Of a stretch of 64,000 nucleotides of DNA, positions 8,947-61,636 are shown piece after piece. The notes under the pieces are model-generated. The model worked only from the letters and a program-made list of their open reading frames with translations, was not told where the DNA came from and did not search any database. Numbering within the stretch: the first letter of the stretch is position 1; every line of letters starts with the position of its first letter. The translations under genes and the position numbers were made by a program. Source of the DNA: Atherinomorus stipes (taxonomy: Eukaryota; Chordata; Actinopteri; Atheriniformes; Atherinidae); contig JALJCO010003062.1 of NCBI GenBank assembly GCA_023101725.1, positions 434,001 to 498,000 of the forward strand, written 5' to 3'.

Positions 8947-9216
8947 ATCGTCAGAATGTGTGTTTTATTTACGTGTATTTTATTTATTGCCTGCCACAGT
9001 TTCATACCAACAGAACTCTTTATAGTCACAAATCAACAACACAGCGTTTAGTTTTGTTTAACTTTATTGAACAGCAAACTGAAGCATTGGGCAGTGTTTT
9101 CATATGGATTGTCGAATCTGCGCGTTCGGAAAACAGGCTGAGTACTCCTGAAGGCAACATCTGCAAAAATCACCAGTTAACACGAAAACCAGTTACCCCG
9201 TAACACCGGTCACTGC

Positions 9217-12742: not shown

Positions 12743-15700
12743 TTTTTGCGTGTGTGTGTGGTTGCCTGTGGGGGTGTGTGGAGATGGGTGGGTGGGTGGG
12801 GGTGCATGGGGGATGGGTGTTTGGGTGTGGGGGTGGTGGTGCATTGGTGGGGTTTGTGTGTGTCGGGTTGGGGGGCTTGGGTGGGGAGCGGGGGGTGGAT
12901 CTGTGGGGGGATCGGATGCGGGGCGGCTGGGTGGGTGGGGGGGTGTGTGGGTGGGTGGGTGGTGGCTCTGGCGGAGTTGGGGGATTGTGTGTGTCGCGGC
13001 CTGGGTGGGGGTGCAGGCTTGGGTTTGGAGGGGGGGCATGGACACTGGGGGGGCGGATGTGCGGGGACTAACTGGCTATACAGGAGGGGGTGGGAGGAGG
13101 ATGGGATGGGGGAGTGTTGATGGGGGTAAAGTCGTTGGTTGTTTGAAGTAGGGTTTAGGGGTGATACAATAGAGTGGGGGAGGAAAGGGGAGGGAAAAAA
13201 AAAATAGCAGTTCTGCGTGCCTCTTGGGGGGTTTGCGAGGCCTGGGGATGTTGGGCCGGTGACTCTGGCCCCTCCGCCGACCCTTTCCGCTCCCGTCCCT
13301 TTTCCCCCCTCCCTGGCCTGGGGTGGTCGAGCGCCTCCAGGGGCCGAGGCTGGCCCCTCTGTGGTGAACGCCGGTCGCCGGGCCGTGGGGGCGGCCGTGC
13401 CTGCCCCCTTCTGCCCTGGGGGGATCCCGGGAGGCAGGGGTACCTAATGCCGGTAACGGCTCTTCTTCCAGGGGGGGAATTCATACCCCCCTGGTCTCCT
13501 TTCCCAAGACCCCCCCCCTGCTCTACCTCACACACACACGTAGGGTTTTGGGGAGGGTGCGTGTCAAGCGGGCGTGGTGAGGGAGGGCACCAAAGTGCCT
13601 TTGCTTGCCACGTCTAGAGACAGCCTGCTCCCCAGTTTTAACCACACTTAGACACCTAAACACATAAAATAACAACAGCTCACAACCACTTCTGAGGGGC
13701 GGGCCATATAGTGTTTGGAAGGAGGGAGGGGCCGGTTGGGGGGTCATGCCCCCTACGCGACCCCACTCCCGGCATGACTTGGCACTGCCCCTCAGTTTTA
13801 ACTGCAAACAACACACATCTTACACACACAGTCATGAGCGGGGGAGGGGGGGGGGGGGGCAGACAGGGTCCTTTCATACCCCCGGTCTCCCGGCGCTACT
13901 GGGGGAGGGGGGGGGGACAGTGGCTGCTTCACGCGCCAGTGGTTAAGGCTGGCTGCATTGCTGGGGATCTGCTGGCCTGGGGGATGCCTGGCCTGCTGCG
14001 TCCGGGGGTGGTGGTGGGGGGGAACATGTTGGGGGCTTGGAGCTCACGGCTCCTTCCCCGGCCCGAGCTACCACTCAGGAGGCACGAGGGCATGGGCAAG
14101 AGAGAGGTGGGTATGTGAGAATAATGAATGAGAGTGTGAAAGAGGAAATGTGGGAGGGAGGAACTTGGGCTGGAAGAGGGAGGAGATGTGGGTAAGTGGT
14201 TGGAGGAAAGGGGGGATGGAGGAAGGAGGGGCATGCTTGTGAGTGTCTAGTAGGGATGGTCATGAGGGGCTGAAGGAAGGAAGGGCGGGACTGTGATAGG
14301 TCAGAGGGATGGGCGGGGCTGGACATGTAAGGGGGGGACTGTATGGGGCATTGGGGGTATAGGGAGGTGGGGGCGTATGTGTGGGGGGGGTATTGAGGGG
14401 TTGGTGCAGTTATGTGGGGGGAGTGCATGTGTGAGGGTATGAGGAGGTGGGGGTAGGTGTGGACGGTAGAGGGAGGAGAGTGTTGGGGGTGGAGGGAGGA
14501 GTGAGTGTGGGTATGTAAGGTTGGAGAGCGGAGTGGGTGGGTGTATGTGTGTGTGGGGGGGGGGTACATGGAGGTGTTGGGTAGGGCTGGGCGGTGTGGG
14601 CGGAGGTTCGTATCTCGGTATTCGTGCCGGGCATCTCGGTGTCGGTGTGGTGCGGTGTGGCTGCGGGTTGGTTGGGGGCCGGGCGCTTTGGTGGGGGGTG
14701 CGGTTTTGTTTGTGGCTTCCGGGGCTTTGTATGCGGGCGCGGGGGATCTGTATCTTGTGTGTGGTTGCTCTTGCGGTGTTGATGTCTTGGGTGCCCGTGT
14801 CTCGATGTGGATGCGGTGATGGTATATCTTTCAGCCCTAGTGTTGGGGTAGGTGTGTGGGGAGTGTGTGTGTGAGCGTGGTGGCGGGGTAGGGGGTGGTA
14901 GAGGTGGTGGCGCCCTGGTGTCAGGTGTGTGGGGCAGGGACGTTGGGGTGGGGGCTGGCCTGCCCTGGGGGGCGTCGTCTGGGGGGTCCGGCCCTCCTGG
15001 GTTTCAGTTGGGCCGCCCGGGTCCGGGGGGGGGGGGGGGGGGGTGGCTGCTCCTGGTCGCTTGGGCCCTGGGCCCGGCGCTGTCTCCGCTCCGGGGGACG
15101 CCCGGCGCCCGGTGGGGTCGGCAGCTGCTGGTCTTGGTCCGCTGGGGCCTGGGCCCCCAGACTGCAGGGGGCTCCGGCTGGGGCCGCCTTTGCCGCCCTC
15201 GGGGGATACATGTCCGCTCTTTGGGGGGGGGGGGGGGGTAGCTGGGATCTGGGCCTCTGGGTGGCTGCTGGGGGCCTGGGTCGTGAGCCTTGCGGGCTTC
15301 CTCCTCCTTGCAGAGACGAGGCTGCATCTGCATGACTGTATCACCACGGAGCACGCTTTATTATGCATGTTGACACTGTGACACTGCTTTCCATTGCGAT
15401 GACTAGGTTGTACCTCTTCTCTACTTCCCATTGCGCTGACTAGGTTGTACCTCTTCTCTGCGTAGTTCTGCGTGTGTTTGTATGATCTGAGGATATTTAA
15501 GCCACCTGCAGGTCCTCCTGTAGGGGATTGCTTGTTTTGTTTTCCAACAGAGACCTTGGTTGTTTAGGGATCGCGGTACAGATGTACCAGTGAACTGTGT
15601 AAGTGGATTCATGTTTTCTCTCCTCTCTCTCTTCCTCTTCCTTACTCCTTTTTTCTCTGTTTCACTTTCTATCATTACCTCTGTTAACTTTCATTTCTTC

Positions 15701-15856
15701 CTTGTCAGGCCCAGCAGTATGAAATGGAATGGTGTAATAGACAAATGTTTAAATAAAGAAATAAAATTAATAAACATGATATCAAGTGGAGCCTTATGTT
15801 CATAAAGCTCCGCTTGGTAAAGCAAAACTGTTCAACAGAATAAAGCAATCAGACCC
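12743..15856 (+). mobile_element. G-rich retroelement insertion (5'-truncated non-LTR type, inferred)
   Basis: The plus strand is extremely G-rich from 12750 to 15300, with GGGTG/GTGTGG tracts and poly-G runs such as those at 13847-13858, 15026-15043 and 15221-15238. The last 640 bp (15211-15855) recur at 37086-37736 with high identity, so the block belongs to a dispersed family and not to a CpG island. Its right end (AATAAAGCAATCAG) is the same in both copies, while the left end varies, as expected for 5' truncation. The insertion disrupts the surrounding repeat unit after GACGTGCTTAAC. Long proline-rich frames on the minus strand (for example 14301-15431) mirror the base composition. No reverse transcriptase is seen. 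The poly-C at 15856-15872 marks the junction. Confidence 0.6.
15211..15855 (+). repeat. 3' end of the G-rich retroelement family, copy 1
   Basis: This region matches 37086-37736 almost base for base. It includes a short tandem duplication (CCCATTGCG[A/C]TGACTAGGTT, twice at 15393-15450), a pyrimidine-rich stretch (15611-15662) and AATAAA-type signals near 15751-15770. The terminal motif GGAGCCTTATGTTCATAAAG also has a diverged relative at 44034-44058. Confidence 0.8.
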
Positions 15857-33894: not shown

Positions 33895-34710
33895 ATTTTC
33901 AATTCAAATTAATTCAATTCAATTCAACTTTATTTGTGTAGCATCCATTCATGACAGTGTCACCTCAGGGCGCTTAACAGACAGAAAAATTCAGGTTAGA
34001 TTAATAATAGCCTAGCTAAGGAAACCAACAGATTGGAGCGAATCTTGACTTGACTCGGTCCAATCCCCCATCCTGAGCAAGCACGGAGTGCTGGCGACAG
34101 TGGGAAGGAAAACACCCTTATAACAGGGAGGAAAAACCTACGGCAGAACACGGCTCAGGTAGGGCGGCCATCTGCCTCGACCGGCTGGGAGGGGAGGGGA
34201 CAGAAAGGGAGACCAACAGATACTGCAACTTTTATCCAGCCAGACCTGCTGAGAGAGGAGAAACACAGTTAATGATGCAATACTGTCACAAGTCTCTACA
34301 TGGAGAAGCAGAGATGAGTGGGAGAGGAAGAGCCCAGTGCATCATGAATGACCCTCAGCAGTCTAAACCTATAGCAGCTTAACTAAGGGAAGGCTAGCCA
34401 TCCCTAACTATAAGACTTATCAAAAAGGAAAATTTTAAACCTAATCTTAAAGGATAGAGAGGGTGTCTGCCACCCGAACCTAAATTGGTAACTGGTTCCA
34501 CACTAGGGGGGGCTGATAACCAAACGCTCTGCCTACCATTCTACTCTTAGAGACCCTTGGAACTGTGTCACACAGACACACAACAGAGAATAGTCTGTAG
34601 AAGAGAAAGTGTTCAGTTAGTGGCAGATGTCTGGACCAAAATGTCTTGTTGATGTCAGAGGAGAAAGGGCAGACTGGTGGAAGATGACTTAAATAACCAC
34701 TGGTTCCAAC
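33895..34710 (-). mobile_element. Non-LTR retrotransposon 3' region, part 1
   Basis: The tandem ATTCAATTCAATTCAA followed by CTTTATTTGTGTAGCA is, read on the minus strand, the 3' tail of a common fish non-LTR element. Body landmarks are GGCGACAGTGGGAAGGAAAA, CGGCAGAACACGGCTCAGG and GGGCGGCCATCTGCC. The sequence continues beyond the hAT insertion at 35956, where AACCAAGGTTAGCAGAATAC fits straight on to the left part. No reverse transcriptase frame survives in this portion. Confidence 0.65.
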
Positions 34711-35955
34711 TAGAGCTGGGTGATATGGGAAAAGTTCTATCACAATAATTTTTTCCATATTGTTCGATATCGATATATATCACGATATAAAATAAATTTT
34801 TATTTTTGACAATCTTTAATGTTCCCTTTGACTTCTAAACGAGATTTAAAGATGTCAGAGGATTCATTTTATTCAAATATTTATTTTCTGTCCAAGCTGA
34901 ACGTGACATGTAACATTACACAGCTGTGTCAGATAAAATAGGTACACAAATAACTCTAAATGAATTATAAAAATCGTAATTCTAAAACTAAAATCTTAAA
35001 GCTTTCCAGTTTAACAGGAGAACAGAAGCAAAATGGAAATATTTTCAATGTCATAAAAATAAATAAATGATATATTTGATATTTTAAATAGCACCAATAA
35101 TACCTTTTGTTTCTGGAAATTTGGATGATGTAAACTTAAATTTAAGGTATAAAATAATCAGAAACTTTATCAATCAGGAAAAAGTGTGATGATAAATGTC
35201 GATCTTCATGCTGTAAACCATCTTCCATCTGAGAGATGATGCCCAATTCAGATTTTTTATTTAATGACGTGAGCAGTTCATGTGTTATCTATGTGATTGT
35301 ATCGTGCATTAATACTGTATGCGCATGCACGTGACTCGTGAAGTCTCTACAGACCTTAAAGAAAGCCTCCCCTGAAAGCCACAGTGTGATCTGAACCTTG
35401 ATCAATTTATTTATAGGAATGTCTTCAACTTGTAAAATTCAAGCTAACTTATCAGCCGTTACCTTTCCTCCCTCCAGGTAGCACTCCTGCTGCTCCGCCT
35501 CTGCCCCCCCAGCTCTGCATGTTGTCCGCATGCACAGCAGGTGACAGTATCGCCGCTGCTGCAGCGTCAGTTCAGAAATGTTGACGTTTTTGTGTTAAAT
35601 CATTTAATCCTCGGCGTCCTGAAAGTGGTGATGATAAAACAGCTGCAGTCAGTGAAGGAGAAACGTGGCTTTTCCTCCTCTGTCATATCGGAGGCTTTGC
35701 TCTGTCCATGCGGTGGCGCGCGCTTCTTCACGTGTTTGTGTTGTGGTTTGAGAGGGGGCGTGACTTGGAGACAGCACGTGCCTGGGTCTGCATTTGTGAT
35801 TGGTTAGGATGGAGTAATGACTCTAGTATTAAGCTACATGATAGGCTGGAATGAAAAACGAAGGGAGGCTTTTTTTTCCCCCTAACGTCCTATTGAGGCT
35901 CTCTTTTATCTATCGCAGGCACGCCTTTTTGATAGATATATATCGCCCAGCCCTA
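34711..35955. mobile_element. hAT-type element inside a non-LTR element
   Basis: The left end TAGAGCTGGGTGATATGGGA and the right end TATATCGCCCAGCCCTA are inverted repeats of the hAT TAGGGCTGGGCGATAT type. Tandem GATAT motifs follow (34763-34790). The flanking octamers GTTCCAAC (34703-34710) and GAACCAAG (35956-35963) match at five of eight positions. The 1,245-bp interior has no transposase. The host repeat resumes on the right, which supports the boundaries. Confidence 0.75.
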
Positions 35956-36120
35956 GAACCAAGGTTAGCAGAATACCATCTCTGTACACAAAAGATGAAG
36001 CAGGTGGGCTTTGGCATAAGAAGACCACTGGCTGCCACTCCTGTCAGTTAAAAGCAGGAAAGTGAGGCTACAATTTACACACACTCACCAAAAATGGACA
36101 AAAAAATAGGTAGAAACGTT
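35956..36120 (-). mobile_element. Non-LTR retrotransposon region, part 2
   Basis: AACCAAGGTTAGCAGAATAC...GAAGACCACTGGCTGCCACT...CTCACCAAAAATGGACAAAA matches a very common fish repeat. It appears to continue the element broken at 34710. Strand is given to match part 1. Confidence 0.5.
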
Positions 36121-36244
36121 GTCTAAATCTTAAAAGTCTGCAAACATGTAATGAAGCACACAACACAAGACAATAGGATAAATACACTTGATATGAAAAG
36201 AGAGAAACAATTTTTGTAAAATATTTGTCAAATGTGCATGTTGA

Positions 36245-36478
36245 ACTTTGGCTGACTGCTGTTGGGGGGAGAGTCCCCCTCCCCCCAACAGTTTTTTGGC
36301 TCTAGTGACCTTTATTTGGCAGTAATAGACAGGAAAGGGTGTCAGAGAGTGGGGGATGACATGCAGCAAAGGGTCTGAAGCCAGGAATCAAACCTGGGCC
36401 GGCTGTGCTGAGGACCAGTGGCCTTCGCCCATGGGGCAGCGGCTCAACCAACTGAGCCAAACACCGCCCCCAAGTAGG
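36245..36478 (-). mobile_element. tRNA-derived SINE, third family
   Basis: On the minus strand, GGCTCAGTTGGTTGAGCCGC is a good A box region and GGTTTGATTCC (about 36388-36398) a B box. The body GACCCTTTGCTGCATGTCAT and the tail TGCCAAATAAAGGTCACTAG are typical of a common fish SINE. The 3' end is followed by a perfect hairpin at 36260-36292 (stem CTGTTGGGGGGA). Confidence 0.8.
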
Positions 36479-36984
36479 CTATGTGCTCATTACTGTGCTT
36501 TGAATAATTTCACTCTGCGGAAACCTCTCTGCTGCAGCAACTGTGTTGGCTAGAATTCATTAAAATGCATTATTCATCACTGACTGGTCTGAACCACCTC
36601 CACTTAAAAGTGCTGTATTTAGAAACAACTTCACAGACTGCTCTCTCCCCATGAAGATTGTTCCAAAATTTATTTAGACACTGTAAAAGAAAATATGTCA
36701 ACATAAATTAACATATCATCTGCAAACTGTAAAATGTGGCATTAAGACTGTTGGGATAATGCAAGCCACTCAGGGAATGCAAGCAATAATGCGAGAACCA
36801 GTCTCAGGATTTCTCTTAGTTTTAATTCATTAACTCTTTTAAGTCTGAACTAATAAATGATATTTTAAAAAAGAGTCAGAAATGTATATTTTTAGAAAAA
36901 TCTACAGTTTTTATTCAGCCCTATTTTAAAATAAGTATTTGTATATAAGTATTATTCATCACAATGCTATTTTGCAATTTTTCA

Positions 36985-38022
36985 GACTTCCGGGTTAGCT
37001 TTACTTTTCTCACCAGGGTTTGCCGCTTGGTCAATCCTAATAGATTCCCATGTTGAAATATTACTTCACAGCAGAAATAAATCCGCCCTTCGGGGATGCA
37101 TGTCCGCTCTTTGGGGGGGGTAGCTGGGATCTGGGCCTCTGGGTGGCTGCTGGGGGCCTGGGTCGTGAGCCTTGCGGGCTTCCTCCTCCTTGCAGAGACG
37201 AGGCTGCATCTGCATGACTGTATCACCACGGAGCACCCTTTATTTTGCATGTTGACACCGTGACACTGCTTCCCATTGCGATGACTAGGTTTTACCTCTT
37301 CCCTACTTCCCATTGCGCTGACTAGGTTGTACCTCTTCTCTGCGTAGTTCTGCGTGTGTTTGTATGATCTGAGGATATTTAAGCCACCTGCAGGTCCTCC
37401 TGTAGGGGATTGCTTGTTTTGTTTTCCAACAGAGACCTTGGTTGTTTAGGGATCGCTGTACAGATGTACCAGTGAACTGTGTAAGTGGATTCATGTTTTC
37501 TCTCCTCTCTCTCTTCCTCTTCCTCACTCCTTTCTCTCTCTGTTTCACTTTCTATCATTACCTCTGTTAACTTTCATTTCTCCCTTGTCAGGCCCAGCAG
37601 TATGATATGGAATGGTGTAATAGACAAATGTTTAATTAAAGAAATAAAATGAATAAACAGGATATCAAGTGGAGCCTTATGTTCATAAAGCTCCGCTTGG
37701 TAAAACAAAACTGTTCAACGAAATAAAGCAATCAGATTTCCATTCTGCTTGCTTCGATGCTGGACAGGACAAGTAGAAAAAAAAAATAAATAAATAAACA
37801 TGTTCAGAGCCTGTTCAAATAATAATTTTCGATTTAATAGGTCATGTCAACTCTGAAGAGGTGAATTTTTTTCATAACTCATCTGTTAATTAATCTTGAT
37901 AGTGCGTCCTTGAGAGTTCACAACACTATGGAAGATATTAAGAAAGTGCTCCAGAGTCTTGCTCAGCATGACGGTGAGTAAAAAATGAACGCACATCATT
38001 CTGTGGGTGTACTATTCCTTTA
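36985..38022 (+). repeat. Dispersed repeat (copy 2), split by a retroelement
   Basis: The left part 36985-37082 and right part about 37785-38022 together match 31650-31860 and end like 17290-17362 (AGAGTCTTGCTCA...ACTATTCCTTTAA). The retroelement sits between CACAGCAGAAATAAA and ATAAACATGTTCAGAG, so AAATAAA may be the target duplication. Confidence 0.65.
37083..37784 (+). mobile_element. G-rich retroelement family, 5'-truncated copy 2
   Basis: Starting at CGGGGATGCATGTCCGCTCT it parallels 15206-15855 (including CCTTGCAGAGACGAGGCTGC and the duplicated TGACTAGGTT motif). It continues 3' with TTCCATTCTGCTTGCTTCGA and GGACAGGACAAGTAGAAAAA, ending in an A-rich AATAAATAAATAAA tail. Truncated 5' end plus A-rich tail is the normal product of target-primed reverse transcription. 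This copy shows the true 3' end that copy 1 lacks. Confidence 0.75.
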
Positions 38023-39310
38023 ATCAGACCGGTCAATCCAGTTTGGGCGTAGCTTATACTTTTACTGTTTGTCAATACTTTTTCAAAACCTTTCAAATGG
38101 ACATGATGCCATTGTGGGTTTTTGAGCATAGATATTCAGCCATCTCAAGCGGAGCGTATGTGTTGCTCCCATGCAACGTTGTTACCTGGATATGTTGATA
38201 CTGAAAACACTTCATTTGAATCTCAGTTGTCTGCTACTTGAACAAAATGACAGTATTTGATGCAGTGGGAATGAAGCCATGTTGAAAGGAATCACGATGA
38301 GTCAAGTGTTGAAATAGAGCAGAAACAAGCGGAAAGTTTGGTGAAAAGTGACATTTTGATTCAATTTAAATATTTGTATTCAAAATGACAGACAGCCCAC
38401 ACTCTTTATTCCTCAAAGCGTTAGACTTCCCAGCTGCCATTTCAGCTGCATGAAATTTCTCAGATAATCTTCTAAGTCAGTGCCCACCACAGTTTGACCT
38501 GAACACAGGAGGAGTCCTAAAACGCTTCAGAGCGGCCCTCCCATCCCTCTTCGTCAAGGCTGTTACTTAATCCAGCGGCTGCGTTGTCCGAGGAGTCTGA
38601 CAGTAGGATGGTGTGTTTAATCTTGTTTAAATGTTACACAGATGAAGCATCTCAAGTTCCCTGTCGCAGTCTGAGGAGGCTGGGCTGGTATCTTATCATC
38701 CTGCTGCAGCAGGATCTACGGATTGCCAGCAAAGGGACGGATACCAGCTTAGCATGACCTCAGGCAGGCACACGGATCCCATCAGGTGACGTGTAAACAT
38801 GATTTGTAAAAACATACATCCGAGCAAGGTTAAAAGTTTAGCTCACAGTTGTTGCCTTCATGTCATGATTTTTCTGGGGTATTTAGTTTTTCTGCCGTTT
38901 TATTTCTTTATTCACAATAAAGGAAGCGAAACGAGGTCACCTTTTCAGGAGACTCTGAGGAAGTTCAGGTGCTTTGATGGAAAAATAATCACTTTAGCTT
39001 TCACTTTGAAGTTCTTTTAGCTGAACATGCAGAGCAATTTTTCTCCTTTCTACCCAGTCTGTCTTCACTCCTTTCCCCCCTTACATTCTACTTTCTATGA
39101 ATACAAAAAGCATTTGCTGGTCATCATTTCATTTAACAGACTTTATATTCTCCAAAGTGTGAAAGAATATAGGGCAAGTTTCAAGCTCAATAGGATGCTT
39201 TTTATTGCTTGTTGCGCAGAAATTCTTTTTCTTGTATCCCTGAAGTGTTTGGCTCTCATAAGAAATGTCTACTGCCACGCTTCCACCAAAGGATTAAAGT
39301 GCTGATGACT
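38023..39310. other. Unannotated, mostly non-repetitive
   Basis: No coding region is recognised. The block at 38470-38790 is balanced in composition and includes the palindrome ATCCTGCTGCAGCAGGAT (38698-38715). It may be conserved non-coding DNA, which one sequence cannot show. Confidence 0.35.
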
Positions 39311-39440
39311 AGAGGTCGACCGATTAATCGGTGCCGATAGGACGTTTTACAAACTATCGGTATCGGCTGAACTTGGCTCCGATAGTGGCCGATGGCTGCA
39401 GTTTTTTCCACAGCGCCATGAAGCGCTGCTCTCTGATCAC
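39311..39440 (+). repeat. hAT-type terminal fragment
   Basis: TAGAGGTCGACCGATTAATC begins alternating ATCGG/TATCGG motifs, a recognisable hAT terminal pattern in fish. No right end was found within 1 kb. Confidence 0.6.
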
Positions 39441-40324
39441 TGAGGGGCAGGGCTTTTTCTCCGTAGTTACAATTTTTAGTGGTCTTTCAGTTGATCTAGA
39501 TCGTATTCTGACGGCAGAAGAATCCATAACTATCGCTTACAGTGTTTTTATTTAACGTGACCGTCTTTTTCCTGCATCAAAACTGCGGATGTAGCGTCAT
39601 TTGACGTCACGTTCGCAGGGCAGCGCGGGAAATTCGGACACCGAATTGCAGCGCATTTTGCAGCACACAGCCTGTTCAAGGCAACGGAGAGGAACATGGG
39701 TGGAAACGTTATTTTTGGTATTTAGCGCTTCATCACCCATTAGTATGAAAAAAAGGGACATTCATGTTTGGTTTTTTTCAAATTCCTGCCTCAAGTCCCT
39801 TTAAAGATTTTGGAAACTTCATAAATAATGTTTTTAGCATGCTTAAAGCGACCCTTACCGTTCTTGCATTTCAGAAAGCACAGCAAAATTATTTGAACAT
39901 CAACAGTCCCACTTCACACCAAAGACCCACCCTCCATTCCCTCCGCCTCCTAATGCGGAAGCAAAGGTCTGACAGGCAGGTCCCTCGGCCAGTCCTAGGC
40001 GTGGGCCCCACTGCAAGGATTGGTTGGAGTTTTCATTGAAATTTTAGAGATTAGAATAATATTTTATTTTGATCAATAGTGAGTCTGTCTTGTATTTCAG
40101 AGTTCCATTACCTCATTCATAGCATTTTACCCTGTTAAGAAATAGTGCAACAATACAACATCAGTAAGAGCTGCTTTAAATCAGCTTCTGCTGATGCGAT
40201 AATGCCAAATTAGAATTTTTATTATGACATGAATAATAACTTCGATAGTATCTTAATAAAAATCACAAACATATTTGATCAATGTATTGGTTATATTTCA
40301 CACACACACATAGAGCAGTTTAAT

Positions 40325-47852: not shown

Positions 47853-48249
47853 AACCTACACCATCCCCCAGTCCTGTTATTCTTTACAGTTCTGTACTAA
47901 TCTAGAAAGTATGAACAAGGTGACACGATAAAACGCTGCAGTACAATAACCTGTATTATAATGGCCAAATTATTCTTTATTAAAAACAAACATGAACCAG
48001 GTGGGAAAAATGATGTAAAAAATTTAATTTTCAATTTTTATTACAGTCATTATGTCATACATCAGCTGTGAAAGCAATGGGGCTTAAAAAATATCCGCTG
48101 ATTACTTTTGCATTAATTACTTGTTTTATTTGTCTATAGGCTAGTTAATCACTCTTACTACCACAATAAGAGTGATTGACGGTCAGTTCAACAGGCAATA
48201 GGCAAGACTGATCAATGAGAGTAGAGAGATATACAAGGACACCTTTAGT

Positions 48250-48545
48250 CAAAATGTATGATTTATGACCCCCAGGTGTCATTTATGACCCTGTGACGTC
48301 ATTTATGACCCTATTGATGTGTTGTACGTCCGCTGTACGTCATTTATGGCCCCAGATGTCTTTTATGGTCCTGTGACGTCATTTTATGAACCATTGATGT
48401 TTAAATTAAGATTTATGACACCCAGATGTTCGTTTATGGTCCTGTGACGTTATTTAGGACCCTTTGATGTGTTCTACGTCCGATGTACGTCATTTATGGG
48501 CTATTGTTGATTATGACCTATTGTTGATTATATTTATGACATGCA
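48250..48545 (+). repeat. Subterminal repeats of the palindrome (left)
   Basis: Variants of ATTTATGACCC / TTTATGGTCCTGTGACGTCA, GATGTGTTGTACGTCCGCTG and TACGTCATTTATGG recur at intervals of about 20-110 bp. The many TGACGTCA/TACGTCA cores could bind bZIP proteins or the element's own proteins. The mirror set is at 61308-61603. Confidence 0.8.
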
Positions 48546-51500
48546 GGTGTAGTGTAGGAATGTGTTGACGTGTTTCAGTCTTTGATGAGTTGTTTTTGTG
48601 AGAATACAATTAGATATCAAAGGTTCTTTTTAAAAGTTGCTGAGACTTTGAGGGTGTGTTTCTATGGGAGGTAAGTGAAGGATGGAAATGTGAGACCCCT
48701 CACCCCTTTACAGCTGTGACACCCCGTAGGGGCCCTGTTGTCTGTGTGCTTTAGCTCCTCCCAGGAGCTGTGTGCTGAATTGGGAGATATCAGATGTCCT
48801 CCACAGAAAGATTTGATCCAATCAGAATTTAACGCTATGCTCCTCCTCGTTGTCAGAAAGACTCGACCTTCTCCTCATTTACTTTCAGAAGATTTCATCA
48901 ATTATTCCTTAAATGTGTCACTAGTGAGTGTTAGCAGTAAAAAACAGTGTATTTTCATGCATTGAGTTTGTGAGGTAAAAAACCTCCAGTTTGTTAGTGT
49001 ATGAGAACGGTCATTTGCAAAGGAGTTTTCAAAGAGCTTCTTTCCACAGCCTGTCTTTGACAATGTCGTGAGGCTCCTCCTGCCTTCCACACTGATTTGA
49101 GCTGAGAGAGGAGGAGGGTGTTGGAGGGAAATTTAAAATAGAGTTCCATGTATTCCTTTAGATGTGGGTCTCCCTATTCTGTTACTTTTAAATGCTTCAC
49201 TAACAACAAGTAATAAAAAGTCAAGCAGAGTTGTCCATTTGTGTGGAGGAGAAATACCTCCACAGTCTGCCTGTGTAAGGAAGTTTGTATGCAAATGTTG
49301 CCTCCACATCCACTTTCCTGTGATAAACCACCTCCTGCTTATCATCCAGCTCGGGGGATGATGTGAAAGAGGTCTCTATTGACGGCTGATGGATAGCAAG
49401 GGGGTCAGATGCGTCCTGATCAACACCTCTGATGTCTCCAGCTGTGTTTGATTGGTGGTCAGTGAGAGAGACTTTCCATTCAAATGGTTATTTTTGTCCT
49501 CCCTGTGTATCAAAAGCAGAGCACATTTGGTCTTTCTTTTTCAGCCTTCAAACTGATGGTATGTAAACTTTATTAAATACACCTATTCTTAACAAGTTTT
49601 AAATGTGGTGCAGACCATCATCATTCAGTTAGCTGATACATGTGCTTCACATAAAAACTCCTCTTGATTGTAAAGAATGCATTGAATTAAAGTTAATGGG
49701 AACAGGGGAAGAAGGTGCAAAGACAGACCGATCATCAGTGCAGGTGTAAACCAAGCTGAAACTAAAGCCTTATAAAATATAAAGAAAAACACCTCACCAA
49801 TTAACTTGTTTTCACCAACTAGTTGATGCTGTCAAGAGTTTCTGGCAGCCAAGTCCATCAGTGTTGATGCTCACCGAGGAGGTGTAAGGAGCAAGTGTGT
49901 TGATTCTAGTAGATTTTCTAAAAGGTAACTTGTAGTCATGCAGAAAACCTGTTCAAAACTACACAATATTTCTTTATCAAAGTGAAAGCACATCAACAGA
50001 TCTAATTTACCAGCACAACTCACATACAGCATCAGAAGGTTTCAGGTGAAGGAATACAGCCTTCACAGATTATGTTTAAGAACAACCAGAAAGAACAAGT
50101 TAGGGGTTGATTTATGGAATAACTTGAGCTTTAAAATTGTGTGTAACAATAAATAAATAAAAACATTTGGAAATGATCAACTTCACAGGATGGAAAGGAC
50201 TCATCTGTACTGTTATTGTTGGAGGAACACTTGTTTCTCTGAATTGCTTGTTATTGACTGGGTGCAAAGATTTTATATTTTTACTTCTTGCATACTGTGG
50301 TGCAGTACACTGAACATAGAACATTAATAATAAACATTAGAATAGTTATATGGAAAAAGGCCTCAAAATGTTTCTACTTTGGCCTGCTCCATTTTTGGAC
50401 CATAACAGGAAAGGATGAAAGAAAATTGGACAGAAAATGATAAAAAGTCACATTGGTGGCTCAACAAGAAAAGTGTTGCAGGGTCATGAGTTGACTGAAA
50501 AAGCTTCATGTAGTTTCTACTTGTGCCGCAGCTTTTTCTCCAAAGCCCTAATTGTGTTAATCTTGTCAAACACCTTCATGACACCCCGTCCCTTTGCTTT
50601 CTGTCCTTAGGGTGGAGTTTATGCTGATTGATTTACACATCAGTCTGCTGAGCTGCAGAGGTTTCTATTGAAAGGAGGTGATAAAAACTCAATATTCTTT
50701 TTTGTGGGTTAAACAAAAAACAGTTGTGGTAAATAAAAAGTCAAACTGTAGCAAAATCTGTGGTTGTGCCAAATTTACAATACCCTACATTGAAAAAATA
50801 GTTGTTTCGAAATCATGTGTCAGTCAAAAAATAGCCCATCTTTTATCCATGAAGTGTCAAAAATCATTTACTTATTCTGAAAAAAAGTTCAACAATTAAA
50901 AAACAACAAATAGTTTAACATTAGTTACAGTTCTTTGAAATGTAAACTGTATTTCATTTTGTTTCTACAGAGACTTTTAGCTTTGATCAGCAGGTTTTGA
51001 TGAAAACCAGATGCTCGGACAAAGGGGTCGCAAATCTTTTTGTTTCTACAGACACTTGGATCCCCTGGGAAAGCTTCTTAACAAAATGTAGGATTCAGAC
51101 TTAGAGATGCAGATATTTTTACTGAAAGGAGGTGTTAATATTTGTAGGTTCAACCCAAAACAGCTGTGCTAAACAAGTTTAATGTAACCAAGTGCTAACT
51201 TTGAGGCATTTAACATTCAGCAGATTGAACTTTAAGGGGGCATTTACTTACAAAAACACATTGACTTTGTGGAATTTATCAAGAAGTTAATACTAAATAC
51301 AGATGCTGAATGAGGCATGGAATTTCATGAGTGGTGATGAGAAAAAGACTTTCACTGAAAACCAGAGAGGTGAAAACATATATCGTATACTAAATTATTA
51401 TATTCTAGCAAAAAACAAAATTAAATTAAAAAAATAGTTCCATGTTTGTGTATTTTTGAAATAAAAGATATGATTGTTTTTTCAATTGTAAAAATAAAAA

Positions 51501-51549
51501 GTTTGTTTTAAATTTGTATAAAATATTTTTGGGTGTTTAGTTTGAGAAT

Positions 51550-52390
51550 ATTTTTTCTGTTGCTACATTTTTTTCAACTGAAACAAAAAAAAAAGTTTGA
51601 TTACCTTTAAACGTTGTGTTGACTTTTTTTTTATTAGGTGCTACATTTTTAATCTGGAACAAGAAATAGTTGGATCACTTTTTAATGATGTGTGAAATAT
51701 TTTTTCTCTGGTGCTACATTTTTTTAACTGAAACAAAAAGTTTGATTACTTTTTAAATTTGTGTAGATATTTTTATTTGGTGTTACATTTTTTAACTGAA
51801 ACAAAAACAGTTTGATTACTTTTTAAAGTTGTGTAGATTTTTTTTTATTTGGTGCTACATTTTTTTAACTGAAACAAAAAATAGTTTGATTACTTTTTAA
51901 AGTTGTGTAGATTTTTTTATTTGGTGTTACATTTTTTTAACTGAAACAAAAACAGTTTGATTACTTTTTAAAGTTGTGTAGATTTTTTTATTTGGTGCTA
52001 CATTTTTTTAACTGAAACAAAAATAGTTTGATTACTTTTTAAAGTTGTGTAGATTTTTTTATTTGGTGCTACATTTTTTTAACTGAAACAAAAACAGTTT
52101 GATTACTTTTTAAAGTTGTGTAGATTTTTTTATTTGGTGCTACATTTTTTAAACTGAAACAAAAAATAGTTTGATTACTTTTTAAAGTTGTGTAGATTTT
52201 TTTATTTGGTGTTACATTTTTTAACTGAAACAAAAAAAGTCTGATTACTTTTTAAAGTTGTGTGGTATATTTATTTAATTTTAAAGCTACTTTTTTAACT
52301 TAGACAAAAATAGTTTGATTACTTTACAAAGTTGGGTTGAATAGTTTTGTTTTTTCTGTTTGTAGGCTACATTTTTTTTTACTACTCATT
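51550..52390 (+). repeat. 71-bp minisatellite in left arm
   Basis: About 12 tandem units carry the core GGTGCTACATTTTTTTAACT, GAAACAAAAACAGTTTGATT and ACTTTTTAAAGTTGTGTAGA. The central units are nearly identical and the outer ones diverged. Repeats are directly contiguous with no unique spacers. Confidence 0.95.
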
Positions 52391-53692
52391 TTTATTAAAT
52401 GTTTGCTTTTTATGAAAGTTCTGTATATTTTGTAGACCAAAGAAAAACAAAAGAATCGATGTGTTTTCAAGATTTCTCGAGTTTAAATAAGCTGTGTAAA
52501 CCATCAACAGCATTTTCATTTCTACTAATCTATGGATTTAAAGCTGTGTAAGGAACAATTCATTATGTGTTCACTATTATGTTTAATCCTTAAAGGCTCT
52601 GTTGGTTTTGTATGTATGCATCTTCCCAAACCTCTATACAGTAAATTAAGTATGGTAAAAATGAGTGTGCAGTATAAACGACACTCTAAAAAGACTATTT
52701 TGGCTGTAGTTGAAAGACTTACTTACATCGACCTACCTTAATCAGTTTTTACTTTCACTCAGAGATTCAGTAAGTTCTTGCAGTTCTAAAAAAAAATCTC
52801 AACATATCTGGACCAAAGGCTCATGGGAAAAGCAAATTCAACAGAAATTAACCTTTTATGACAGTTATCCTATAAATTTGAGTTATGTGTTTACTGCCAT
52901 TGTTATGTTCATATTTAATTTCTGCTAGATAATGGATTTAAAAAGTCTAGTTTTAAGTGGAAATTTATTGTGTGCTCTATAGTCACTATTTTCTATCATC
53001 ATTCAATGTTCTATTGTTTTTGTATGTATTTTCCCAAACCTCTATGCAGTGAATTAAGTATGGTAAAAATGAATGTGCAGTATAAACTACATAAAGAATC
53101 TTTTAGATGCAGTATATTTAGCCCAGTTTAACACTGCTTTAGTGTAATTTACTGACAGTTTCCACGTCAGTTTGTCATCTAACCATTAGAACTTGAATAT
53201 CTATCGTGAATATCTTTGCCCTTCAAATGTTTTGTCCTGATTTACCCCAAACCGTGACTTTTAGTTAATTCCGTCATTCTCCTTCAGAACTAAATATATC
53301 TGCTGAAGTTTCACATCTTATTTTGGGATTTTTGTTTATTCCCGTTTCTACTACACTGACATACCATTTAAAACAACCACAACCTAGGATTTGTTTTTAA
53401 ATATCTATAAGAAGACAAGAAATTATTATGTGTGTCGTCTTTTTTACCTATAAAAATGCTAGTTAAATGCTGCCTGCAGTACTGGGCTACCTTGATGTTT
53501 TAGTCTAATAACTGAGTATCTTGCGTAGGAACACTGAGTGTCGGAAGCGTCTGGTCACGGTTCCTAATCCTAACCACGATTCTCGACCAACAATAATGTT
53601 ATCTAACATCTACATATCCGTCTCGTAATCATGATACTGTCAAATAATCGTGGTGTGGAACTAGGATAAACACACTTCCCTTGTTCTCACAG

Positions 53693-53794
53693 CTGTCCTT
53701 CACCTACTTCTGCATCCAAGAAAAGTCTCAGCTGCAACTTGAGAGAGTCGCTTTCTCTGCACAAAAGCTATTTGGGCCAAATGCTGCAGGAAAA
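53693..53794 (+). other. Exon-like block, left arm (unrecognised product)
   Basis: A 102-bp block in one frame is preceded by a pyrimidine-rich acceptor (CCCTTGTTCTCACAG) and followed by a consensus donor (AAA|GTACGT). Its 34 codons start LSFTYFCIQEKSQL and end KLFGPNAAGK. The length is a multiple of three. I do not recognise the protein. It could be a captured host exon, an exon of an element gene, or chance. No neighbouring exon could be matched. Confidence 0.35.
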
Positions 53795-53964
53795 GTACGT
53801 CCACTATACTGTTTATGTTTTTCTACGATCTTCTGCTCTAAGAAGCGTTTAATTGTAAGGATAGTTTCTGTTCTGATCCTCCTTGTGGGAAAACACAGTG
53901 AATCTTTTAACATCTTGTAATGTCTTTATTGTTTATTCTTAATTACATTGTCATAACCTTAAGT

Positions 53965-54050
53965 GCGTCAACAAATATCGGTATTGATAAGGAGTATCAA
54001 TGATGGTATCGATAAAACCATGATTTACATCTCTAATCTTGAGCTAGGAT
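53965..54050 (-). repeat. hAT-like terminal remnant in left arm
   Basis: On the minus strand TAGAGATGTAAATCATGGTT runs into TATCGATACC/CAATACCGATATT motifs, typical of hAT ends. The same remnant is at 55657-55742 in the other arm, so it predates the arm duplication. Confidence 0.5.
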
Positions 54051-54475
54051 ATGTTGAGCTATTTTCTTGGCACATCAGTGCTTGAGTTTTACAATAAATT
54101 TGCAAATCATATGAGACCGCTAATAATACATCATTTACATAATAATAATATGTCAAAAAAGATTCAAAGCAAATTCAGATGCATTACATCAGGCACTTTA
54201 CTCAATTATACACAGCAAACAAAAAGAATAACACAGTCATTTTTTGTCAAATACAACCCGTCCGAAACATCTTTTTTATAAATAATATAAACCTGTTTTT
54301 AAATGATGATGTACCCAACAAAGTGCAAAGAATGCAAAACTTATGTGGCAACTGATTACTTAATAAATTTTAAGTTAACAAAACTATATATTTTTTAAGT
54401 TAAGTTCCACTACAATGACTTTTCTGAGTAAAACTATTTGAAAGTTCTTAAAAAAAAATTGTCATGAATACATTA

Positions 54476-55224
54476 TAGAAGCTTTTGGCGTTGCTGTTAT
54501 TTCTGAAAGGAATGTAATGTTTGATCATCTACTTTTGGACGTGGTCTTTTTAAACTTTCCTGTTTGTTAGACAGTGTTAACATCTTGTGTAACAGAGTGA
54601 AACCATTAACATGGTCTTTAAAAAATAAATAGCCTAGATTGATAAGTAATTATGTTCAACCGAATCATTTAAATGTAATGAAATACACGATCCCTGTTAA
54701 CTATTATTAGAAAGTTTTGACTGTGACTTTTTATACTCAAATACGATGTGTACACTGTAAATTCTAATAAGTTGACTTTACTTAAAAAAAAATATGCAAA
54801 CTCTGCCTCAGAAAAATTAAGTAATCTGTAATAGAAGTGTTTAAGTAGAATAAACTAAAATGGTTTAAGTTTGTAGAACTTTTCTGAACTTAATAAATTT
54901 GATTAAACTGTAAGTGAATGATGCTGGGTAACAAACTTTATGTGATTAATTTCACAGAAATTAGATGAGATGTTTCACACTATTTTAATTTTAATTTTTA
55001 CCAACATGATGCTTTTGAGTTCATCTTACTTAAAGTAAATGATGAACTCAATACTGTTCTTACTATGTAGCAAGAACTTAGTGTTGGTGGGTTTTAGCTA
55101 CAACTATTGTCAGACCACATACTTCTCTGTCGCGGTGCAGCAGCTGCTGGATAGTAGCTGTTAAATACAGGAATAAACAAACAAGTTGAGAGCAGTCACA
55201 TGTAATTATGAAAATGGTACATGG
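54476..55224. other. Unpaired centre of the palindrome
   Basis: These roughly 750 bp are AT-rich with no open frame of note. They contain AAGTTTGTAGAACTT-like and TTACTTAAA motifs similar to the inner ends of the arms, and a CpG-bearing GTCGCGGTGCAGCAGCTGCT at 55130. No replication or protein motif is identified. Confidence 0.6.
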
Positions 55225-55906
55225 TGACATTCGTGACAAAAGAACTTTCAAATAGTTTTACTCAGAAAAGTCATTGTAGTGGAACTTAACTTAAAAAATA
55301 TATAGTTTTGTTAACTTAAAATTTATTAAGTAATCAGTTGCCACATAAGTTTTGCATTCTTTGCACTTTGTTGGGTACATCATCATTTAAAAACAGGTTT
55401 ATATTATTTATAAAAAAGATGTTTCGGACGGGTTGTATTTGACAAAAAATGACTGTGTTATTCTTTTTGTTTGCTGTGTATAATTGAGTAAAGTGCCTGA
55501 TGTAATGCATCTGAATTTGCTTTGAATCTTTTTTGACATATTATTATTATGTAAATGATGTATTATTAGCGGTCTCATATGATTTGCAAATTTATTGTAA
55601 AACTCAAGCACTGATGTGCCAAGAAAATAGCTCGACGTATCCTACAGTAGCTCAAGATTAGAGATGTAAATCATCATGGTTTTATCGATACCATCATTGA
55701 TACTCCTTATCAATACCGATATTTGTTGACGCACTTAAGGTTATGACAATGTAATTAAGAATAAACAATAAAGACATTACAAGATGTTAAAAGATTCACC
55801 TGTGTTTTCCCACAAGGAGGATCAGAACAGAAACTATCCTCACAATTAAACGCTTCTTAGAGCAGAAGATCGTAGAAAAACATAAAAAACAGTATAGTGG
55901 ACGTAC

Positions 55907-56008
55907 TTTTCCTGCAGCATTTGGCCCAAATAGCTTTTGTGCAGAGAAAGCGACTCTCTCAAGTTTCAGTTGAGACTTTTCTTGGATGCAGAAGTAGGTG
56001 AAGGACAG
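55907..56008 (-). other. Exon-like block, right arm
   Basis: This is the mirror copy of 53693-53794, with both splice signals and the 34-codon frame intact. One amino-acid change is seen (SQLQLE in the left arm, SQLKLE here). A preserved frame and splice sites after duplication are consistent with coding, but the arms are too similar for this to be informative. Confidence 0.35.
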
Positions 56009-57329
56009 CTGTGAGAACAAGGGAAGTGTGTTTATCCTTAGTTCCCCACCACGATTATTTGACAGTATCATGATTACGAGACGGATATGTAGATGTTAGA
56101 TAACATTATTGTTGGTCGAGAATGGTGGTTAGGATTAGGAACCGTGACCAGACGCTTCCGACACTCAGTGTTCCTACGCAAGATACTCAGTTATTAGACT
56201 AAAACATCAAGGTAGCCCAGTACTGCAGGCAGCATTTAACTAGCATTTTTATAGGTAAAAAAAGACGACACACATAATAATTTCTTGTCTTCTTATAGAT
56301 ATTTAAAAACAAATCCTAGGTTGTGGTTGTTTTAAATGGTATGTCAGTGTAGTAGAAACGGGAATAAACAAAAATCCCAAAATAAGATGTGAAACTTCAG
56401 CAGATATATTTAGTTCTGAAGGAGAATGACGGAATTAACTAAAAGTCACGGTTTGGGGTAAATCAGGACAAAACATTTGAAGGGCAAAGATATTCACGAT
56501 AGATATTCAAGTTCTAATGGTTAGATGACAAACTGACGTGGAAACTGTCAGTAAATTACACTAAAGCAGTGTTAAACTGGGCTAAATATACTGCATCTAA
56601 AAGATTCTTTATGTAGTTTATACTGCACATTCTTTTTTACCATACTTAATTCACTGCATAGAGGTTTGGGAAAATACATACAAAAACAATAGAACATTGA
56701 ATGATGATAGAAAATAGTGACTATAGAGCACACAATAAATTTCCACTTAAAACTAGACTTTTTAAATCCATTATCTAGCAGAAATTAAATATGAACATAA
56801 CAATGGCAGTAAACACATAACTCAAATTTATAGGATAACTGTCATAAAAGGTTAATTTCTGTTGAATTTGCTTTTCCCATGAGCCTTTGGTCCAGATATG
56901 TTGAGTTTTTTTTTAGAACTGCAAGAACTTACTGAATCTCTGAGTGAAAGTAAAAAATGATTAAGGTAGGTCGATGTAAGTAAGTCTTTCAACTACAGCC
57001 AAAATAGTCTTTTTAGAGTGTCGTTTATACTGCACACTCATTTTTACCATACTTAATTTACTGTATAGAGGTTTGGGAAGATGCATACATACAAAACCAA
57101 CAGAGCCTTTAAGGATTGTACATAATAGTGAACACATAATGAATTGTTCCTTACACAGCTTTAAATCCATAGATTAGTAGAAATGAAAATGCTGTTGATG
57201 GTTTACACAGCTTATTTAAACTCGAGAAGTCTTGAAAACACAGATCGATTCTTTTGTTTTTCTTTGGTCTACAAAATATACAGAACTTTCATAAAAAGCA
57301 AACATTTAATAAAAATGAGTAGTAAAAAA

Positions 57330-58325
57330 AATGTAGCCTACAAACAGAAAAAACAAAACTATTCAACCCAACTTTGTAAAGTAATCAAACTATTTTTGTC
57401 TAAGTTAAAAAAGTAGCTTTAAAATTAAATAAATATACCACACAACTTTAAAAAGTAATCAGACTTTTTTTGTTTCAGTTAAAAAAATGTAACACCAAAT
57501 AAAAAAATCTACACAACTTTAAAAAGTAATCAAACTATTTTTTTGTTTCAGTTTAAAAAATGTAGCACCAAATAAAAAAATCTACACAACTTTAAAAAGT
57601 AATCAAACTGTTTTTGTTTCAGTTAAAAAAATGTAGCACCAAATAAAAAAATCTACACAACTTTAAAAAGTAATCAAACTGTTTTTGTTTCAGTTAAAAA
57701 AATGTAGCACCAAATAAAAAAATCTACACAACTTTAAAAAGTAATCAATCATTTTTTTTTTTTCAGTAAAAAAATGTAGCACCAAATAAAAAATCTACAC
57801 AACTTTAAAAAGTAATCAAACTATTTTTTGTTTCAGTTTAAAAAAATGTAGCACCAAATAAAAAAATCTACACAACTTTAAAAAGTGATCAAACTTTTTT
57901 TGTTTCAGTTTAAAAAATGTAGCACCAAATAAAAAAATCTACACAACTTTAAAAAGTAATCAAACTTTTTTTGTTTCAGTTTAAAAAATGTAGCACCAAA
58001 TAAAAAAATCTACACAACTTTAAAAAGTAATCAAACTTTTTTTGTTTCAGTTAAAAAAAAAAAAATGTAGCACCAGAGAAAAAATATTTCACACATCATT
58101 AAAAAGTGATCCAACTATTTCTTGTTTCAGATTAAAAATGTAGCACCTAATAAAAAAAAAAAAGTCAACACAACGTTTAAAGGTAATCAAACTTTTTTTT
58201 TTGTTTCAGTTGAAAAAATGTAGCAACAGAAAAAATATTCTACAGAACTTTAAGTAATCAAGCTTGTTCTTGTTTCAGATGAAAAACTGTAGCACCAGAA
58301 ATAATATTTTATACAAATTTAAAAC
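57330..58325 (-). repeat. 71-bp minisatellite in right arm
   Basis: About 14 units, the inverted counterpart of 51550-52390. One extra outer unit (58245-58325, ending TGTAGCACCAGAAATAATAT) is missing from the left arm. The copy-number difference accounts for most of the length difference between arms. Confidence 0.95.
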
Positions 58326-61300
58326 AAACTTTTTATTTTTACAATTGAAAAAACAATCATATCTTTTATTTCAAAAATACACAAACATGGAACTATTTTT
58401 TTAATTTAATTTTGTTTTTTGCTAGAATATAATAATTTAGTATACGATATATGTTTTCACTTCTCCGGTTTTCAGTGAAAGTCTTTTACTCATCACCACT
58501 CATGAAATTCCATGCCTCATTCAGCATCTGTATTTAGTATTAACTTCTTGATAAATTCCACAAAGTCAATGTGTTTTTGTAAGTAAATGCCCCCTTAAAG
58601 TTCAATCTGCTGAATGTTAAATGCCTCAAAGTTAGCACTTGGTTACATTAAACTTGTTTAGCACAGCTGTTTTGGGTTGAACCTACAAATATTAACACCT
58701 TCTTTCAGTAAAAATATCTGCATCTCTAAGTATGAATCCTACATTTTGTTAAGAAGCTTTCCCAGGGGATCCAAGTGTCTGTAGAAACAAAAAGATTTGC
58801 GACCGCTTTGTCCGAGCATCTGCAACTCTGTGAGGAATCAGCAGATTGTCTACATTTCATCAAAACCTGCTGATCAAAGCTAAAAGTCTCTGTAGAAACA
58901 AAATGAAATACAGTTTACATTTCAAAGAACTGTAACTAATGTTAAACTATTTGTTGTTTTTTAATTGTTGAACTTTTTTTCAGAATAAGTAAATGATTTT
59001 TGACACTTAATGGATAAAAGATGGGCTATTTTTTGAGTGACACATGATTACAAAACAACTATTTTTTCATTGTAGGTATTGTAAATTTGGCACAACCACA
59101 GATTTTGCTACAGTTTGACTTTTTATTTACCACAACTGTTTTTTGTTTAACCCACAAAGAAGAATATTGAGTTTTTATCACCTCCTTTCAATAGAAACCT
59201 CTGCAGCTCAGCAGACTGATGTGTAAATCAATCAGCATAAACTCCACCTAGGACAGAAAGCAAAGGGACGGGGTGTCATGAAGGTGTTTGACAAGATTAA
59301 CACAATTAGGGCTTTGGAGATAAAGCTGCGGCACAAGTAGAAATACATGAAGCTTTTGTCAACTCATGACCCTGCAACACTTTTCTTGTTGAGCCACCAA
59401 TGTGACTTTTTATCATTTTCTGTCCAATTTTCTTTCATCCTTTCCTGTTATGGTCCAAAAATGGAGCAGGCCAAAGTAGAAACATTTTGAGGCCTTTTTC
59501 CATATAACTATTCTAATGCTTATTATTAATGTTCTATGTTCAGTGTACTGCACCACAGTATGCAAGAAGTAAAAATATAAAATCTTTGCACCCAGTCAAT
59601 AACAAGCAATTCAGAGAAACAAGTGTTCCTCCAACAATAACAGTACAGATGAGTCCTTTCCATCCTGTGAAGTTGATCATTTCCAAATGTTTTTATTTAT
59701 TTATTGTTACACACAATTTTAAAGCTCAAGTTATTCCATAAATCAACCCCTAACTTGTTCTTTCTGGTTGTTCTTAAACATAATCTGTGAAGGCTGTATT
59801 CCTTCACCTGAAACCTTCTGATACTGTATGTGAGTTGTGCTGGTAAATTAGATCGTTGATGTGCTTTCACTTTGATAAAGAAATATTGTGTAGTTTTGAA
59901 CAGGTTTTCTGCATGACTACAAGTTACCTTTTAGAAAATCTACTAGAATCAACACACTTGCTCCTTACACCTCCTCGGTGAGCATCAACACTGATGGACT
60001 TGGGTGCCGGAAACTCTTGACAGCATCAACTAGTTCGTGAAAACAAGTTAATTAGTGAGGTGCTTTTCTTTATATTTTATAAGGCTTTAGTTTCAGCTTG
60101 GTTTACACCTGCACTGATGATCGGTCTGTCTTTGCACCTTCTTCCCCTGTTCCCATTAACTTTAATTCAATGCATTCTTTACAATCAAGAGGAGTTTTTA
60201 TGTGAAGCACATGTATCAGCTAACTGAATGATGATGGTCTGCACCATATTTAAAACTTGTTAAGAATAGGTGTATTTAATAAAGTTTATATACCATCAGT
60301 TTGAAGGCTGGAAAAGAAAGACCAAATGTGCTCTGCTTTTGATACACAGGGAGGACAAAAATAAGCAATTGAATGGAAAGTCTCTCTCACTGACCACCAA
60401 TCAAACACAGCTGGAGACATCAGAGGTGTTGATCAGGACGCATCTGACCCCCTTGCTATCCATCAGCCGTCAATAGAGACCTCTTTCACATCATCCCCCG
60501 AGCTGGATGATAAGCAGGAGGTGGTTTATCACAGGAAAGTGGATGTGGAGGCAACATTTGCATACAAACTTCCTTACACAGGCAGACTGTGGAGGTATTT
60601 CTCCTCCACACAAATGGACAACTCTGCTTGACTTTTTATTACTTGTTGTTAGTGAAGCATTTAAAAGTAACAGGATAGGGAGACCCACATCTAAAGGAAT
60701 ACATGGAACTCTATTTTAAATTTCCCTCCATCACCCTCCTCCTCTCTCAGCTCAAATCAGTGTGGAAGGCAGGAGGAGCCTCACGACATTGTCAAAGACA
60801 GGCTGTGGAAAGAAGCTCTTTGAAAACTCTCCTTTGCAAATGACCGTTCTCATACACTAACAAACTGGAGGTTTTTTACCTCACAAACTCAATGCATGAA
60901 AATACACTGTTTTTTACTGCTAACACTCACTAGTGATACATTTAAGGAATAATTGATGAAATCTTCTGAAAGTAAATGAGAGAAGGTCGAGTCTTTCTGA
61001 CAGCGAGGAGGAGCATAGCGTTAAATTCTGATTGGATCAAATCTTTCTGAGGAGGACATCTGATATCTCCCAATTCAATACACAGCTCCTGGGAGGAGCT
61101 AAAGCACACAGACAACAGGGCCCCTACGGGGTGTCACAGCTGTAAAGGGGTGAGGGGTCTCACATTTCCAACCTTCACTTACCTCCCATAGAAACACACC
61201 CTCAAAGTCTCAGCAACTTTTAAAAAGAACCTTTGATATCTAATTGTATTCTCACAAAAACAACTCATCAAAGACTGAAACACGTCAACACATTCCTACA

Positions 61301-61636
61301 CTACACCTGCATGTCATAAATATAATCAACAATAGGTCATAATCAACAATAGCCCATAAATGACGTACATCGGACGTAGAACACATCAAAGGGTCCTAAA
61401 TAACGTCACAGGACCATAAACGAACATCTGGGTGTCATAAATCTTAATTTAAACATCAATGGTTCATAAAATGACGTCACAGGACCATAAAAGACATCTG
61501 GGGCCATAAATGACGTACAGCGGACGTACAACACATCAATAGGGTCATAAATGACGTCACAGGGTCATAAATGACACCTGGGGGTCATAAATCATACATT
61601 TTGACTAAAGGTGTCCTTGTATATCTCTCTGAGAGT

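Follow-up and report, generated by a model that had tools for sequence, protein, structure and literature searches.

The window, a 64,000-nucleotide stretch of the genome of the fish Atherinomorus stipes (assembly GCA_023101725.1, contig JALJCO010003062.1, positions 434,001 to 498,000), contains a 13,408-bp palindromic element at 48223-61630, and the mirror-image structure of this element is real. Its parts are given below, together with its target-site duplication (TSD) and its homology to C4539, a gene-bearing Polinton found elsewhere in this genome.

48217..48222, no strand: left TSD copy, GAGAGT
48223..54449, + strand: left arm, 6227 bp, terminus AGAGAG
48223..48888, + strand: arm 1-666, with homology to the C4539 Polinton's inverted repeat
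48261..48499, + strand: subterminal repeats of the ATTTATGACCC type
48889..49487, + strand: arm 667-1265, homologous to C4539 left-end sequence, not found at the C4539 right end
51561..52334, + strand: 71-bp minisatellite of the left arm
54450..55239, no strand: centre, 790 bp, unmirrored in the window copy
55240..61630, - strand: right arm, 6391 bp, reverse complement of the left, terminus CTCTCT
57369..58297, - strand: 71-bp minisatellite of the right arm
60366..60965, - strand: mirror of arm 667-1265, approximate position from the arm alignment
60966..61630, - strand: mirror of arm 1-666, approximate position from the arm alignment
61631..61636, no strand: right TSD copy, GAGAGT

Over 6212 aligned bases the two window arms were 98.86% identical; the alignment contained 71 substitutions and 29 gap events, the latter covering 194 gap columns. 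Leaving out the 71-bp minisatellite gave an identity of 98.98% over 5399 bases. The symmetry begins at the outer ends (AGAGAG/CTCTCT) and stops at the centre, about 300 bp of which (arm numbering 6232-6530) was found in both orientations in another copy of the element, C5751. A sequence-only reading of this DNA had described a 13.4-kb near-perfect palindrome with arms of about 6.25 and 6.4 kb, AG...CT termini and GAGAGT on both flanks, all of which was confirmed, whereas the centre it put at 750 bp measured 790 bp. According to the available part of PMC8097293, vertebrate Mavericks carry end motifs such as 5'-(AG)3//(CT)3-3' or 5'-(AGT)2//(ACT)2-3', 6-bp TSDs and inverted repeats of 46-1,447 bp. 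The window copy has Polinton/Maverick ends, with AGAGAG at 48223 and CTCTCT at 61630, but its arms of 6.2-6.4 kb are longer than Polinton/Maverick inverted repeats. Long inverted repeats, internal 71-bp minisatellites in both arms and dispersed copies give it the structure of a foldback-type element.

The gene-bearing Polinton/Maverick C4539:76-16852 is 16.8 kb long and has the same (AG)3 ends as the palindrome. The Pfam domains detected in it were DNA_pol_B_2, an A32-type ATPase and an rve plus Chromo integrase; the remaining 13 of its 17 scanned open reading frame (ORF) pieces showed no Pfam family at E 0.01. Since DNA_pol_B_2 is spread over two overlapping frames, the polymerase gene is broken in this copy. 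The polymerase, the ATPase and two more ORFs lie on one strand, and the integrase and the capsid-region ORFs lie on the other, an order that agrees with the two converging modules of vertebrate Mavericks as given in the accessible text of PMC8097293. The closest named relatives of the integrase were fish proteins (Takifugu, Scophthalmus), and it matched the integrase of the Pimephales minnow adintovirus at 56%. With the ORF adjoining the integrase as query, 147 relatives were found, and among the 120 of them listed the named ones were hypothetical or uncharacterized proteins of fish and spiders. The roles of the further ORFs, including those of the capsid region, are presumed from position and recall. 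The inverted repeats of C4539 are unequal, about 343 bp on the left and about 680 bp on the right. Its TSD is GATGGC/GATGGC (6/6). Apart from the broken polymerase gene, it is the kind of Polinton with shared ends that the sequence-only reading had named as support.

Two other contigs were tried as further Polintons and rejected. In C2187 the arm homology ends beside a 4.8-kb stretch edged by 136-bp direct repeats, and in C1365 it ends at a G run followed by retroelement-like ORFs; none of the 17 Polinton ORF pieces matched either contig. The long G run of C1365 (about 1583-1630 of the stretch read) is possibly a sequencing or assembly fault. A decayed PolB fragment with about 84% DNA identity to C4539 was observed near a terminus remnant in C3111:26000-35999, at 6126-7210.

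The palindrome itself carries no recognized genes. A six-frame Pfam scan of the left arm and centre (the right arm, a near-copy, lay outside the scan) found no family at the cut-off, and the one sub-threshold match was RIN1 at E 0.66. When the 17 C4539 ORF pieces were compared with the whole window by tblastn, the sole weak match (E 0.079) fell outside the element. The Polinton gene set, namely protein-primed PolB, integrase, ATPase and capsid, was therefore absent at the Pfam cut-off, in agreement with the earlier claim. Rfam and transfer RNA (tRNA) scans of the window found none at their thresholds, and IMG/VR, scanned with one exact terminus pattern, gave 0 matches.

The origin of the arms was examined by comparison with the ends of one Polinton, C4539. 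Arm 1-666 matched the C4539 right end at 84.9% by BLAST with gaps, and the outer 650 bp matched it at 94.9% over ungapped columns; this match has approximately the reach of the C4539 inverted repeat at that end. At the C4539 left end, BLAST matched arm 1-70 and 429-1114, and a more sensitive alignment showed that the match runs to about arm 1265. The alignment score of arm 681-1264 was 732 against the left end and 25 against the right end, and the maximum among 200 single-base shuffles was 36. The arm of C5751, which belongs to a second subfamily, likewise matched deeper into the C4539 left end than the right. The palindrome therefore shares terminal homology with a Polinton of its own genome. 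Because the arm runs about 600 bp beyond the C4539 inverted repeat and there matches the left end alone, an inverted duplication of one end gains support, and each arm looks like a duplicated Polinton left end joined to nearly 5 kb that C4539 lacks.

Copies were sought in the window's own genome assembly (1.18 Gb, 7656 contigs) with the outer 398 bp of the arm, which gave at least 40 matches on at least 23 contigs. Seventeen of the 22 other contigs were read over long stretches; C581, C4785, C1685, C1343 and C468 were read as loci of about 3 kb only, and C1685, C1343 and C468 have a common flank and are duplicates of a single locus. Two inverted arms were present in six copies (window, C5751, C3620, C6585, C3423 and C4931), two of which, C3423 and C4931, are interrupted by a contig end; the expectation of further copies was thus borne out. 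One arm is largely deleted in the C4727 copy, C3608 holds two part-copies, and C1775 has short inverted arms nested within a larger inverted repeat. The copies C5751, C3620 and C6585 form a subfamily with a distinct outer end, which is carried at both ends of each copy. The ends of C1775, C3608 and C4931 abut a TTTAGACCAC minisatellite and the symmetry of C1775 overruns AGAGAG, and for this reason all three were excluded when duplications were counted, although C4931 was still counted as two-armed. In C1775, the Polinton-end-like inverted pair at 34282-40020 was observed inside a larger inverted repeat, the symmetry of which passes far beyond AGAGAG, through the TTTAGACCAC minisatellite and onward.

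These copies bear on whether the palindrome is an assembly artefact or a local inverted duplication of host DNA. All the data come from a single assembly in which C3423 and C4931 stop at contig ends, the hybrid copies C3620 and C6585 could be misjoins, and the G run in C1365 resembles bad sequence. However, the two-armed copies lie on six contigs with different flanks, the symmetry of the window copy halts at AGAGAG, and the 6-bp duplications vary between copies, which makes such an explanation extremely unlikely.

We compared TSDs in C4539 and in five palindrome copies, namely those of which both ends had been read and were included in the count. The window copy showed the 6-bp TSD of Polinton/Maverick elements (GAGAGT/GAGAGT, 6/6). 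Copy C4727 had ACTGCG/ACTGCG (6/6) in flanks that are not GA-rich, and C5751 had CACAGT/CTCAGT (5/6). In C3620, TATATA was found on both sides, but it lies within TA repeats and is uninformative. By chance, a 6/6 match occurs at a frequency of 0.0004 at random window sites and of 0.004 among GA-rich 6-mers. The caution that the GA-rich flanks might match by chance was thus fair for the window copy alone (0.004), but it is mostly lifted by the perfect duplication of C4727. The ends of C4727 were just 93.0% identical (543 sites) within this perfect 6-bp duplication, and a tree grouped both of them with C1365; this copy is a possible chimera. Duplications of 6 bp are not unique to Polintons, and another DDE transposase that also makes them might have moved the element, but homology to the gene-bearing Polinton C4539 extends over the outermost 666 bp and 600 bp more, and we regard this explanation as very unlikely. 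Judging from the ends and the duplications, the palindrome was in all probability mobilized by the enzymes of gene-bearing Polintons.

Arm-to-arm identity was analyzed within and between copies. In the inner segment (arm 4900-6080), the two arms of the same copy were 99.2% identical in the window, 99.8% in C3423, 99.9% in C5751 and 100% in C6585, whereas arms from different copies were 94.5-97.8% identical, with the exception of the C3620 right arm. Close inner arm pairs were thus seen in four of five copies. In the inner tree the two arms of the window (98/98), C3423 (100/100) and C6585 (100/100) were sisters. In the outer segment (arm 1520-3300), the arms of the same copy were 98.7% identical in the window and 99.9% in C5751. 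The C5751 arms were also compared in 22 blocks of about 300 columns, up to the point where the symmetry ends; identity was 97.9% in the last block and 99.3-100% in the other 21. Of the 32 window arm differences tested, 19 were private to one arm. The data suggest that each arm serves to renew the other, an effect seen best close to the centre, and this pattern would fit renewal during replication and renewal in place alike.

Taken together, we interpret the palindrome, with a probability of roughly 70%, as a non-autonomous, fully palindromic Polinton/Maverick derivative, both arms of which come from the left (polymerase-side) end. The central claim of the sequence-only reading, a gene-less palindromic Polinton derivative, is supported by the shared ends, the left-end homology, the dispersed copies and the 6-bp duplications in some of them. 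The element has neither the genes nor the normal inverted repeat of a Polinton and is not one in that sense; it represents a non-autonomous family that derives from Polintons and resembles foldback elements.

Several results weigh against this interpretation or parts of it. The proposed inverted duplication of one Polinton end is supported by left-end-only homology to about arm 1265 and leaves arm 1266-6227, nearly 5 kb in each arm, without a C4539 counterpart; past arm 1265 the sole match was a 60-base AT-rich stretch with 78% identity, at arm 3156-3212. The same picture could be produced by a long ancestral inverted repeat that was lost at the C4539 right end. In that case the arms would come from a Polinton lineage with inverted repeats of about 1.3 kb at both ends, and the palindrome would have arisen by internal deletion and growth of the repeats. 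The unequal, and hence changed, repeats of C4539 agree with this, as do Maverick repeats of up to 1,447 bp in the part of PMC8097293 available, but no trace of arm 681-1264 was present at the C4539 right end, and we consider such an origin unlikely. Of the 17 other contigs of which long stretches were read, nine showed at most one arm in the stretch covered (C1981, C134, C3900, C6332, C1177, C3608, C1365, C2187 and C3111); for some of them the cause may lie in contig ends, insertions or decay. The 6-bp duplications expected in other copies were found in C4727 and, at 5/6, in C5751, but the flanks of two-armed C6585 (GTCACA/GAAGAG) are unmatched; by the test that the sequence-only reading set itself, a related copy without a duplication counts against the claim.

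The arms add further points on the same side. The two arms of C3620 were just 97.9% identical in the inner segment, and the pairing of the C5751 arms was unsupported in the inner tree (16.6/53). In the outer segment, the arms of the same copy diverged in C3620 (97.2%) and C6585 (96.5%), the outer arms of C5751 were no closer to each other than to the C3620 right arm (99.9% in both cases), and C1981 was 98.9% and 98.7% identical to the two window arms, which are 98.7% identical to each other. In the outer-segment tree no copy had its two arms as sisters, and 13 of the 32 window arm differences tested recurred in other copies. The outer segments thus count against the simple expectation that a new copy starts out with two identical arms.

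Because arm closeness holds near the centre and fails farther out, formation of the two-armed form by replication is put forward tentatively, at somewhat less than an even chance. It is also possible, though doubtful, that a Polinton-mobilized element had its arm identity kept after insertion by gene conversion or hairpin repair in the host, as the arms of Y-chromosome palindromes are kept alike by gene conversion. Patchy identity that is strongest near the centre suits such in-place repair: the inner arms of C6585 showed no difference at 1192 sites while its outer arms differed by 3.5%, and the window arms are close near the centre and farther out no closer than another copy. Against it, the C3620 right arm was 99.8-99.9% identical to the C5751 arms in the inner segment while the C3620 left arm was still at about 97-98%, so that the right arm was recently shared with C5751 and conversion has not caught up; the C3620 copy could be an assembly chimera.

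Strand displacement is known from related replicons, and snap-back copying events are known for defective adenovirus genomes. Polintons encode a protein-primed polymerase (PMC6431247, available part). In the mechanism we propose, the gene-less palindrome would be replicated and integrated by the enzymes of gene-bearing Polintons such as C4539. The displaced strand could fold into a single hairpin, the stem of which would measure about 6 kb. During protein-primed strand-displacement copying, a strand that has copied one arm could snap back at the centre, and a polymerase turning there would copy one arm twice, by which the palindrome would be made or renewed. The Polinton integrase would insert the element and leave a 6-bp duplication.

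A bolder idea, to which we assign a low probability, is that a vertebrate Maverick has natural satellite genomes, near full length, gene-less and with two left ends, and that the palindromes are their copies in the genome. The left end may have been kept as the holder of cis signals needed in replication or packaging, and during copying one arm may serve as the template for the other, with the result that both arms show a change that arose in one. Maverick virus particles have never been observed, according to the available part of PMC8097293. A palindromic family with 6-bp duplications would preserve, like a fossil, traces of Polinton replication and would point to one end carrying the needed signals; if the replicative reading is true, it would also point to snap-back copying as in protein-primed viruses. 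The family would parasitize a virus-like transposon of a vertebrate, and its 6-kb hairpin-forming repeats may destabilize the genome or feed small-RNA silencing.

Two further repeat structures were observed elsewhere in the window. A second palindrome of about 1.95 kb lies at 7248-9217, with arms of about 760 bp that are 98.6% identical (7254-8014 and 8454-9209). The sequence TCACTGCC, present at both 7248-7255 and 9210-9217, may be its duplication of 6 to 8 bp; its arms contain the sequence GGTTCGAACC, which we take to resemble a tRNA B box. A direct repeat of about 660 bp with 95.6% identity was found at 15193-15853 and 37083-37736.

Among the open-access papers listed by literature searches, none described a palindromic Polinton derivative in its title or the start of its abstract. 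The family can be compared with known systems that share parts of its structure. Like defective adenovirus genomes with duplicated left ends, it seems to have one genome end of a protein-primed replicon twice, in inverted orientation, but unlike them it is integrated in the genome, where it has spread and diversified as a family of repeats. Its very long inverted repeats and internal tandem repeats are those of Drosophila Foldback-type transposons, whereas Galileo belongs to the P superfamily (PMC4168063, available part) and the palindrome has Polinton ends. It shares non-autonomy, inverted repeats and a fish host with the palindromic miniature inverted-repeat transposable elements of Atlantic cod, which are hAT-derived and for which no Polinton link was found in the accessible text of PMC12368964. 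With fish Polinton/Maverick (adintovirus-like) elements it shares the (AG)3//(CT)3 ends, the 6-bp duplications and homologous terminal sequence, and its size lies within the Maverick range of 12.7-24.6 kb (PMC8097293, available part), but it differs from them in being wholly palindromic, without recognized genes, and in having inverted repeats of about 6.2 kb rather than 46-1,447 bp.
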